From positions 1,178,001 to 1,242,000 of the forward strand of contig NZ_JBEPOC010000001.1 of NCBI RefSeq assembly GCF_040546585.1: DNA of 64,000 bases, in the 5' to 3' direction. The first letter of the stretch is position 1. Every line of letters starts with the position of its first letter. Positions 32,922-34,799 of the stretch are shown here, piece after piece. The notes below the pieces were generated by a model. The model saw only the letters and a program-made list of their open reading frames with translations, was not told where the DNA came from and did not search any database. The translations under genes were made by a program, and so were the position numbers. The stretch is from Marmoricola sp. OAE513. Its GTDB lineage: Bacteria; Actinomycetota; Actinomycetes; Propionibacteriales; Nocardioidaceae.

Positions 32922-33707
32922 GTGCCGGACGACCTCTCCTACGACGCGATCGTGACCAGGCTGCGCGCGGCGGGGTGCGTGTACGCCGAGGACGAGGCGG
33001 CGCACCTGCTCGCTGCCGCCGACGCTGCCGACGACCTCGCCGCACTGGTCGCGCGCCGGGTCGCGGGCGAACCGCTGGAGTGGGTCGTGGGCTGGGCGTT
33101 CTTCGGCACCGAGGACGGCGAGGGCATCCGGGTCGCCGTCACCCCCGGGGTCTTCGTCCCCCGGGGCCGGACGATCGAGCTCGCGCTGGCCGCGCTGGAG
33201 CGCCTCTCCCCCGGGGACACCCTCGTCGAGCTGTGCTGCGGAAGCGGGGCGATCTCGGCGTACCTGGTCGACCGGGTCGACGACCTCGACGTGTGGGCGG
33301 CCGACATCGACCCGGATGCTGTTGCATCCGCGCAGCACAACCTGCCCGGGGCACGCGTCGTCGTCGGCGACCTGTTCGAGCCCCTGCCGCCGGCACTGCG
33401 AGGCACCGTCGCAGTCCTGGTGGCGAACACCCCGTACGTGCCGAGCGATCAGGTCGCGCTGATGCCGGCCGAGGCCCGCGACCACGAACCGCTGCACACC
33501 CTGGACGGCGGGCCCGACGGCCTGGCACTGCTGCGCCGGATCGCCTCGGAGGCGTCGACCTGGTTGCGCCCCGGGGGCAGCGTGCTGATCGAGATCGCCG
33601 AGAGCCAGTTCGACGCCGCGCGCGTCGCGTTCGAGGCGGCGGGACTGGTCACGTCCGGCCTGATCGACCCGGACGGGACGACGGTGATCGTGGGCCTGCG
33701 GAGCTAG
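32922..33707 (+). CDS. PrmC/HemK-related protein N5-glutamine methyltransferase
   Basis: About 261 aa from GTG 32922 (V-P-D-D-L-S-Y-D-A-I); GTG 32883 and 32901 are in-frame alternatives and none has a good ribosome site. SAM-binding motif E-L-C-C-G-S-G-A-I-S (usual D-L-G-T-G-S-G-A-I), acidic A-A-D-I-D-P-D-A, and catalytic N-T-P-Y-V-P in place of N-P-P-Y. It resembles the PrmC-related family of uncertain substrate rather than release-factor PrmC. Divergent from the helicase; ends at the edge of the 32-nt repeat array. Confidence 0.82.
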   Translation: MPDDLSYDAIVTRLRAAGCVYAEDEAAHLLAAADAADDLAALVARRVAGEPLEWVVGWAFFGTEDGEGIRVAVTPGVFVPRGRTIELALAALERLSPGDTLVELCCGSGAISAYLVDRVDDLDVWAADIDPDAVASAQHNLPGARVVVGDLFEPLPPALRGTVAVLVANTPYVPSDQVALMPAEARDHEPLHTLDGGPDGLALLRRIASEASTWLRPGGSVLIEIAESQFDAARVAFEAAGLVTSGLIDPDGTTVIVGLRS

Positions 33708-33732
33708 GGGCGCTCGCTCGGGTCACCAGTCG

Positions 33733-33980
33733 CCGAGAGGTCTGGGATGTCCCACCCAGCCACGTCGAGAGGTCTGGGATGTCCCGCGGGACAACGCCGA
33801 AGGGGCTCAGATGTCTCGCAGGACAGCGCCGAAAGGGCTCAGATGCACAGTCGGCTGGGACATCTGCGCCCGCTCGGCGCACCAGGCTGGGACATCTGGG
33901 CCCGCTCGGCGTACCTGGGCGGGACATCTGGGCCCGCTCGGCGTACCTGGGCGGGACATCTGGGCCCGCTCGGCGTATCA
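33733..33980. repeat. head-to-head array of 32-nt tandem repeats
   Basis: Fills the gap between two convergent genes. Left half: about four direct 32-nt units in one orientation (starting CGCCGAGAGG, CGTCGAGAGG, CGCCGAAGGG, CGCCGAAAGG). Right half: four 32-nt units in the opposite orientation, each beginning GGGACATCTG and containing CCCGCTCGGCG. The orientation switches near 33855. Right-hand units are almost identical, left-hand ones more diverged. No unique spacers, so not CRISPR. Transcripts from either side could fold into a long hairpin. Confidence 0.85.
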
Positions 33981-34799
33981 GTCGCCGGTGGTGCGGTGCT
34001 CGTACGCCGCGCGGGCGCCGTGGTCGAAGTCGGTGAACATCGTGTCCATGCCGGTCTTGCGACCCATCCAGCGCTTCGCGCGGTTCGGCATCAGGCCCCA
34101 CTGCGCGGCCGAGATCGCCATGGACGGCGGAACCGTGGCGATCGGGCGGTGCCTGCCCAACAGGGCGACCACGGCGGCGGCGACCTGCTCGGGTTGGATC
34201 GGCGGGCTAAGCTTCGGCGGGGTGGTGCCGTCGATGAGACCGGTGCTCGTGAACGACGGCAGCACCGCAGCCACGCGGACGCCCTGGCCGGAGAGCTCGG
34301 CGTCGAGCGCCTCGGTCAACGACAGGACACCTGCTTTGGTGGCGGAGTACACGGCCGCACCGGGTGCGGCGATCTTGCCGGCCAGCGAGGCGATGTTGAC
34401 GATCTGACCACCACCGGCGGCGATCATCCGGGGAGCGACCTCGTGGACGCCGAGGATGACGCCGCGCAGGTTGATGTCGAGCTGCTTGAGCTGACCTTCG
34501 AGCGGCACGTCGAGGTGCTTGCCGATGACCATGATCCCGGCGTTGTTGACCAGCCCGTCGATCCGGCCGTACTCGGCCTGCACCTTGTCGAGGAAGCCGG
34601 CGAACGACTCCTGCGAGGTGACGTCGAGCGGGAGACCGAGGCCGCCGTAGGCCTGGGCGGATCGCTGCGCCAGCTCGGCGTCGAGGTCACCGACGGCGAC
34701 CCGGGCGCCGGCGGCGGCGAGCGCCTTGGCGGTGGCTTCACCGATGCCACGCGCACCACCGGTGATCGCGACGACCTTGTTGCGTACAGAGCGAGCCAT
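33978..34799 (-). CDS. short-chain dehydrogenase/reductase
   Basis: 273 aa classical SDR. NAD(P)-binding T-G-G-A-R-G-I-G, N-N-A-G-I, catalytic Ser in I-A-S-L-A-G and Y-S-A-T-K. D-L-D after the second strand suggests NAD(H) preference. ATG 34799 overlaps the aldehyde dehydrogenase stop by one base. It probably oxidises an alcohol or ketone in the same pathway as the aldehyde dehydrogenase, DUF2236 protein and P450. Its C-terminus ends inside the last repeat unit. Confidence 0.9.
   Translation of the reverse strand: MARSVRNKVVAITGGARGIGEATAKALAAAGARVAVGDLDAELAQRSAQAYGGLGLPLDVTSQESFAGFLDKVQAEYGRIDGLVNNAGIMVIGKHLDVPLEGQLKQLDINLRGVILGVHEVAPRMIAAGGGQIVNIASLAGKIAAPGAAVYSATKAGVLSLTEALDAELSGQGVRVAAVLPSFTSTGLIDGTTPPKLSPPIQPEQVAAAVVALLGRHRPIATVPPSMAISAAQWGLMPNRAKRWMGRKTGMDTMFTDFDHGARAAYEHRTTGD

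Follow-up and report, generated by a model that had tools for sequence, protein, structure and literature searches.

The head-to-head repeat array at positions 33731-33975 of the window (by which we mean the whole stretch of 64,000 nt that was analysed) is not a local oddity, but a member of a genome-wide family of repeats linked to a nuclease gene. We are highly confident of the underlying association, in which a gene encoding a nuclease fusion goes together with arrays that are head-to-head, dispersed and largely helically phased. Dozens of related bacteria show this combination of gene and repeats, in most cases with a distinct repeat sequence, and the pattern suggests an as yet undescribed type of system by which repeats are spread or kept.

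The window array consists of eight 23-nt cores (GGGACATCNNNGCCCNNTCGGCG) which, together with 9-nt spacers, give exact 32-nt steps within each arm. The left arm contains four minus-oriented cores, at 33731-33753 (outermost, one mismatch to the core pattern), 33763-33785 (two mismatches), 33795-33817 (two mismatches by direct count, one in the search output for genome position 1211795) and 33827-33849 (innermost and degenerate, three mismatches). The four cores of the right arm, at 33857-33879 (innermost), 33889-33911, 33921-33943 and 33953-33975 (outermost), are plus-oriented and all match the core pattern without mismatches, and the innermost cores of the two arms are 7 nt apart (33850-33856). 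Tandem Repeats Finder gave a score of 201 for the right arm (3.9 copies, 94% matches) and of 108 for part of the left arm. The flanking genes, called with our own script, encode a predicted methyltransferase on the left (32922-33707, plus strand; Pfam Methyltransf_25, 4.1e-8) and a short-chain dehydrogenase on the right (33978-34799, minus strand; Pfam adh_short, 5.6e-48). An initial annotation, made from the window alone, had described a head-to-head array of 32-nt repeats, and this architecture is borne out by the four minus and four plus cores at exact steps, as is the argument that a period of 32 nt speaks for non-coding DNA. Its view that the right units are nearly identical and the left ones more diverged also holds, with three of the four right cores identical and the left cores differing more, while its statement that the array exactly fills the gap between the genes is correct on the right (2 nt to the stop codon of the right gene) but not on the left, where 23 nt separate the array from the end of the gene.

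The same annotation had proposed a search of the genome for the unit, and we used the core pattern derived from the window array to do this in the organism's own genome (G000, a single contig of 3,890,914 bases). Up to three mismatches were allowed, which gave 146 matches (71 on the forward and 75 on the reverse strand) as against 0 with the reversed control, and a looser core pattern gave 251 matches vs 12 for its control. The matches make up at least 27 clusters, the window's own included, with a few more listed by the looser pattern, and a sister genome of the same genus (G020) also has at least 27 clusters, 27 of which were read. The orientation of the cores is uniform: all 37 two-armed clusters (20 in G000 and 17 in G020) have their minus cores to the left of their plus cores, while seven clusters in G000 and ten in G020 are one-armed. 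These counts leave out isolated matches with four to five mismatches inside flanking genes (1212005, 1661163 and 3213179 in G000, 108763 in G020), one of which, the minus match at 1212005, lies to the right of the window's plus arm and would break the head-to-head rule if it were counted.

With regard to gene context, 29 of the 54 clusters in the two genomes lie between convergent genes, 18 between co-directional genes and seven between divergent genes, whereas 57 of 510 array-free gene pairs in the same stretches are convergent (median gap 16 nt; Fisher p 2e-12 vs arrays), in support of the convergent setting that had been remarked upon for the window. The gene calls come from our own script, and the background pairs are those of the fetched stretches only; Pfam served to check the strands of 12 proteins, among them those of the nuclease locus and of two divergent sites. 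Where an array side faces a stop codon, the median distance to that codon is 1 nt (57 of 76 sides within 8 nt); for start codons it is 42 nt, with 1 of 32 such sides as close as 8 nt. The idea that the units are mere 3'-end elements of each gene was rejected, because both arms also sit between co-directional and between divergent genes.

The cognate gene of the window's family lies outside the window, at 1347035-1347979 of the own genome (contig C1, plus strand), between an arm of five minus units (1346802-1346952) and one of two plus units (1347981-1348035). It is likewise found between minus and plus arms at the corresponding place in G020 and also, among different neighbours, in G316, which belongs to another genus and has a diverged core; among 341 family genomes, these three are the only ones with tandem copies of the window core at up to three mismatches. 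Immediately next to the gene in G000 are two housekeeping genes, one for a class II tRNA synthetase and the other for a type III pantothenate kinase, and neither neighbour is an AbiEii toxin gene.

The 314-aa product of this gene is predicted to be a fusion of an AbiEi-like part with a nuclease resembling Vsr and I-Bth0305I. Its N-terminus matches Pfam AbiEi_4 (1.5e-5; 25.4 bits vs a cut-off of 25) and PADLOC AbiEi (2.1e-12), and its C-terminal restriction-like stretch matches MTES_1575 and DUF559, both below their cut-offs, while a search of NCBIfam with three of the proteins gave no family for two and a weak match for the third. Structure comparisons were made on an AlphaFold2 model of the protein (mean pLDDT 90.1). 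Residues 200-304 of the model align with the catalytic domain of I-Bth0305I (3r3p_A; Z 9.4, rmsd 2.0, 95 residues), and the model also matches Vsr (Z 7.1, rmsd 2.4, 100 residues). Residues 2-195 align with an AbiEi antitoxin at Z 9.2 over 168 residues, with a high rmsd of 8.7, and Foldseek matched the N-terminal two thirds to AbiEi 6y8q (E 1.9e-4); MenT1 toxins (8an5) come near to the AbiEi score, with a Z of 8.4 (rmsd 3.8, 138 residues) for residues 40-208. In a sequence alignment of 31 homologues the candidate catalytic residues E203, D236, E247, H254 and D262 are invariant. No relative was found in viral contigs among the 57 pattern matches of one scan.

Homologues of the nuclease fusion are present in 294 of 335 family genomes (E <= 1e-15), and the flanks of their genes were compared in two ways. 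When the upstream flank was compared with the reverse-complemented downstream flank, 23 of 30 fetched loci scored above the 95th percentile (54.5) of 870 cross pairs, with some cross pairs reaching up to 491, above every own pair, and no own pair at the 99th percentile. A stricter test against displaced flanks was applied to 80 named loci, mostly from Nocardioides, Marmoricola and Nocardioidaceae MAGs and with two from Microlunatus, four of which were excluded for short flanks. Here 69 of 76 loci exceeded the highest (33) of 75 controls and seven fell within the control range, although the sets of 30 and 76 loci overlap and some genomes have several loci, and therefore these are not independent. 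A tandem period above the 99th percentile of displaced flanks was present in 93 of 159 flanks vs 2 of 154 displaced ones. In a phylum-wide sample, 51 of 396 genomes had a match at E <= 1e-20, and 15 of 29 loci exceeded the highest control (26), or 14 of 28 outside the family, with the own-genome locus (L238) excluded. The repeats vary from locus to locus, with some related loci sharing one, and a motif G-(N)-Y-G-A-S-N-N-G-B-C, which was chosen after looking at the repeats, is found on one strand at 63 of 69 loci vs 7.9 expected from shuffled segments. At four loci (L158, L198, L203 and L171) the bracketing repeats are near-perfect palindromes, in which head-to-head cores with almost no centre give a REP-like look.

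Cores can be private to their genome. The 26-nt core beside the gene in G193 has 286 matches in that genome and 0, 1, 0, 10 and 1 in five others, and the 32-nt core beside the gene in G011 has 115 matches in its own genome and 0, 0, 0, 0 and 1 in five others. A second paralogue in G000 (C1:3319831-3320736) is bracketed by a different 32-nt repeat, for which the pattern GCACATNNCTGCCRGGTCGGCG gave 52 matches in G000 at up to two mismatches and 75 at up to three (reversed control 2), some of the 23 three-mismatch matches belonging to the first family or to chance, and in which minus matches again precede plus matches at the listed places. The third homologue in G000 (74610-75293) has no arrays beside the gene. 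Likeness of the cores rises with likeness of the nucleases (Mantel rho 0.24, 0 of 1000 permutations, 1978 of 2346 pairs kept) after exclusion of pairs with similar wider flanks or more than 80% identity, the version without these exclusions being confounded by synteny. Divided by protein part, the values were 0.24 for the middle, 0.16 for the N-terminal and 0.13 for the C-terminal part, a breakdown which is too weak for the specificity to be assigned to a domain.

The basic period was clear at 60 of the named loci, and was 21-22 nt at seven, 31-34 nt at 42 and 41-44 nt at four of these, the remaining periods being 15, 16, 29, 30, 63, 74 and 75 nt, so that 53 of 60 loci have a period near whole helical turns. 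The phasing resultant at 10.5-10.7 nt was 0.85 (0 of 5000 random draws), which overstates the phasing as the loci are related; it was 0.59 (6 of 5000) without the periods of 31-33 nt, and a weaker 0.52 (169 of 5000) when distinct periods only were used. Off-phase cases are the 26-nt period in G193 and the top lags of 26, 29 and 53 nt in the first 30-locus sample. The simplest reading of these periods is that proteins may occupy consecutive units along the same side of the DNA. A possible array of another period was seen in G305 (C12:55853-56111), where five near-core matches are spaced at exactly 60 nt.

Variation among 177 units in G000 differs between spacers and cores. Within an arm, identity was 0.60 for spacers and 0.88 for cores; when the two arms of a locus were compared, it was 0.34 and about 0.80, respectively, and for comparisons of different loci the values were 0.38 and about 0.81. 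From this, units seem to multiply locally within an arm, with arms diverging separately and the core being kept alike everywhere, and the local amplification that the initial annotation had suggested for the window is supported by the higher spacer identity within arms than between the arms of a locus. The arrays did not arise recently as complete copies of each other, since both arms and 9-nt spacers vary from locus to locus.

The positions of the arrays also differ between G000 and G020. We looked in G020 for the genes next to 12 of the G000 arrays and located both flanks for six; for the other six there was one flank, scattered weak matches or nothing, and such misses are weak evidence since only the best 40 of about 400 candidates were scored per search. 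Four G000 array sites (674519, 1295004, 2008584 and 3412182) are core-free in G020 at up to four mismatches, with their flanking genes adjacent and separated by gaps of 21, 69, 55 and 45 nt, respectively. Neither a target-site duplication nor a clean junction was seen at these core-free sites, and since the short G020 gaps do not align to the edges of the G000 arrays, replacement or growth in situ are both possible. The gene pair that flanks the window array is 2.7 kb apart in G020, and when the 27 G000 clusters were compared with the 27 fetched G020 clusters, three matched one by both neighbours, at two places. The 45-nt gap (L277, gap 1760-1805) contains a short CGCCGAGAG stretch similar to a core's outer end, possibly a seed or a remnant, and the 69-nt gap (L230, gap 1761-1830) has an ordinary-looking hairpin, as if the array had replaced a hairpin. 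The G020 counterpart of the G000 array at 3623773 is 384 nt long and carries an unlike head-to-head pair of roughly 22-nt repeats (L279, gap 1762-2146; contig C2, about 126595-126981), and this intergenic site is thus used by two different repeat families in the two genomes.

We favour, with reasonable confidence, a reading in which the window array, which carries no gene, represents a non-autonomous member of an interspersed repeat family linked to a nuclease, the cognate of this family being a single-chain protein with an AbiEi-like DNA-binding part and a C-terminal nuclease. The AbiEi-like part would bind each core, neighbouring units on the same face of the helix would place the molecules side by side, and the two arms would form a symmetric assembly of bound protein. 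The nuclease part would cut at or beside a core or core-like site, and repair of the break would copy or expand units, which could both seed arrays at new intergenic sites and keep tandem units alike within an arm, with selection leaving copies mainly just behind stop codons, where they would be least harmful. Binding of the cores by the cognate protein is likely, whereas spreading or maintenance of the cores by the nuclease is our best guess; both mobility and spreading by cutting are what we infer from the linkage of gene and arrays. In its most general form, this would be an undescribed mobile or domesticated repeat system of the Actinomycetota, in which an AbiEi-nuclease fusion recognises phased head-to-head arrays and spreads or maintains them by cutting and repair, with private protein-core pairs coexisting in one genome and coevolving, a proposal for which we consider the chances to be about even.

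An alternative that we hold to be unlikely, albeit well within reason, is that the arrays are binding sites owned by the host, serving as operators or anchors for a nuclease-like protein that is now a regulator or chromosome organiser, with an old dispersal kept by selection. The higher identity of cores (0.81) than of spacers (0.38) when different loci are compared would fit this, as would periods near whole helical turns and arrays located between divergent starts, for example those of an enoyl-CoA hydratase family gene and of a Mur-ligase family gene, the latter site being occupied in both G000 and G020. With only three of 27 clusters shared by neighbours and four sites core-free in the sister genome, turnover is rapid, however, and this would be odd for required operators, while the residues of the nuclease domain that are invariant in 31 homologues suggest that the enzyme has been kept.

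The initial annotation had raised the possibility of a two-way terminator or a long-hairpin RNA element between convergent genes, and we now consider this very improbable. The enrichment of convergent sites (29 of 54 vs 57 of 510), the 57 of 76 stop-facing sides within 8 nt of the stop codon and the 73% complementarity of the window arms over 85 nt are all in keeping with such a role, and the two arms could physically pair into one long hairpin. However, 25 of the 54 clusters are not convergent, and the cores of the two arms of one locus are no more alike, and so no more complementary, than those of arms of different loci (0.800 vs 0.808); that the arms of a locus are not kept complementary is evidence against a selected long hairpin. 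In addition, no intrinsic terminator with a G+C-rich stem and U tract was found in window positions 33500-34200 (0.1 expected), the predicted folding of either window arm by itself does not surpass that of shuffled sequences (z -0.69 and -0.27), nor does that of single 32-nt window units (z -1.05, 1.09 and 0.68), and at the gathering score Rfam has no match in the array, its only matches in the window being three tRNAs.

A defence or self-marking device, with the nuclease restrained by or reading the genomic arrays and attacking DNA that either lacks or carries the core, is a still more doubtful explanation: the combination of an AbiEi-like N-terminus with a homing- or repair-type nuclease fold and the presence of two systems with different cores in one genome would suit it, but the immediate neighbours of the G000 gene are the tRNA synthetase and pantothenate kinase genes rather than defence genes. 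Finally, while tandem repeats are error-prone in assembly, an assembly or slippage artefact is extremely improbable given that the same architecture is found in many independent assemblies and that arms have their own spacers.

Compared with known systems, REP and REPIN sequences are described as dispersed extragenic repeats that are often oppositely paired and mostly located between convergent or co-directional genes, with RAYT genes being flanked by repeats in some cases (PMC3733652, PMC8049555, PMC8266576). The arrays described here share with these REP/REPIN-RAYT systems (REPtrons) the many dispersed extragenic, oppositely paired copies and the enzyme gene flanked by repeats, but the enzyme is an AbiEi-nuclease fusion rather than a Y1 transposase, and the window family has tandem non-palindromic cores near whole helical turns whereas REPs are palindromes of 20-40 nt that fold as a stem-loop and bear a GTAG or CGTC tag at one end. 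The Y1 HUH transposase family PF01797 has no match in G000, with matches in 5 of 14 control genomes. The REPtron is the nearest known logic, with its enzyme not found in G000 and with a different unit. Our host lineage is the Nocardioidaceae, and the term 'Actinobacteria' is absent from the main text of the REP survey (PMC3733652).

Likenesses to other systems are partial. The catalytic fold is that of I-Bth0305I-type homing endonucleases by structure comparison, but it is here fused to an AbiEi-like part, with the gene located between arrays among ordinary genes and the cores dispersed; I-Bth0305I is an EDxHD enzyme, EDxHD being a family of homing endonucleases. Such enzymes cleave alleles that lack them and enter these through repair; what was observed here in this regard are the core-free sites of G020. 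The N-terminal two thirds match AbiEi, the antitoxin of the AbiE type IV toxin-antitoxin system, which binds operator repeats, but a nuclease domain is fused to it and there is no AbiEii immediately beside the G000 gene. Tandem units of tens of bases are also a feature of CRISPR as it is commonly defined, but here the arms are arranged head-to-head, and the spacers of 9 nt have an identity of 0.60 inside an arm. MIRUs are short tandem repeats, again with units of tens of bases. No description of AbiEi or DUF559 genes linked to dispersed repeats was found in the part of the literature that was covered by our searches.

If the preferred reading of a nuclease-linked interspersed repeat is correct, a repeat population that occupies dozens of intergenic regions in each genome would be driven or maintained, in members of a large bacterial family, by a nuclease of the homing type that has no relation to HUH transposases. 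REP-like biology would then gain an independent second origin, so that general features of repeat populations could be asked about, and orphan genes annotated as AbiEi or DUF559 might find an explanation. Since the core belonging to each protein is found in the flanks of its gene, a large number of natural pairs of protein and site would be open to the study of DNA recognition, and the recognition sequence of each protein could be read from its host genome.

Two further genes were seen between opposed arms. One, in the own genome, is YqeY-like and has arms of the window's family on both sides, with seven units in the minus arm and four in the plus arm (L042, G000:C1:1779217-1779952). In G193, a DUF222 gene (Pfam 7.2e-25) is found between minus and plus arms of the 26-nt family (L272:1041-2369, G193:C1:3282040-3283368); the DUF222 family often accompanies HNH nucleases, and the position of this gene means that arrays can bracket genes other than that of the nuclease.
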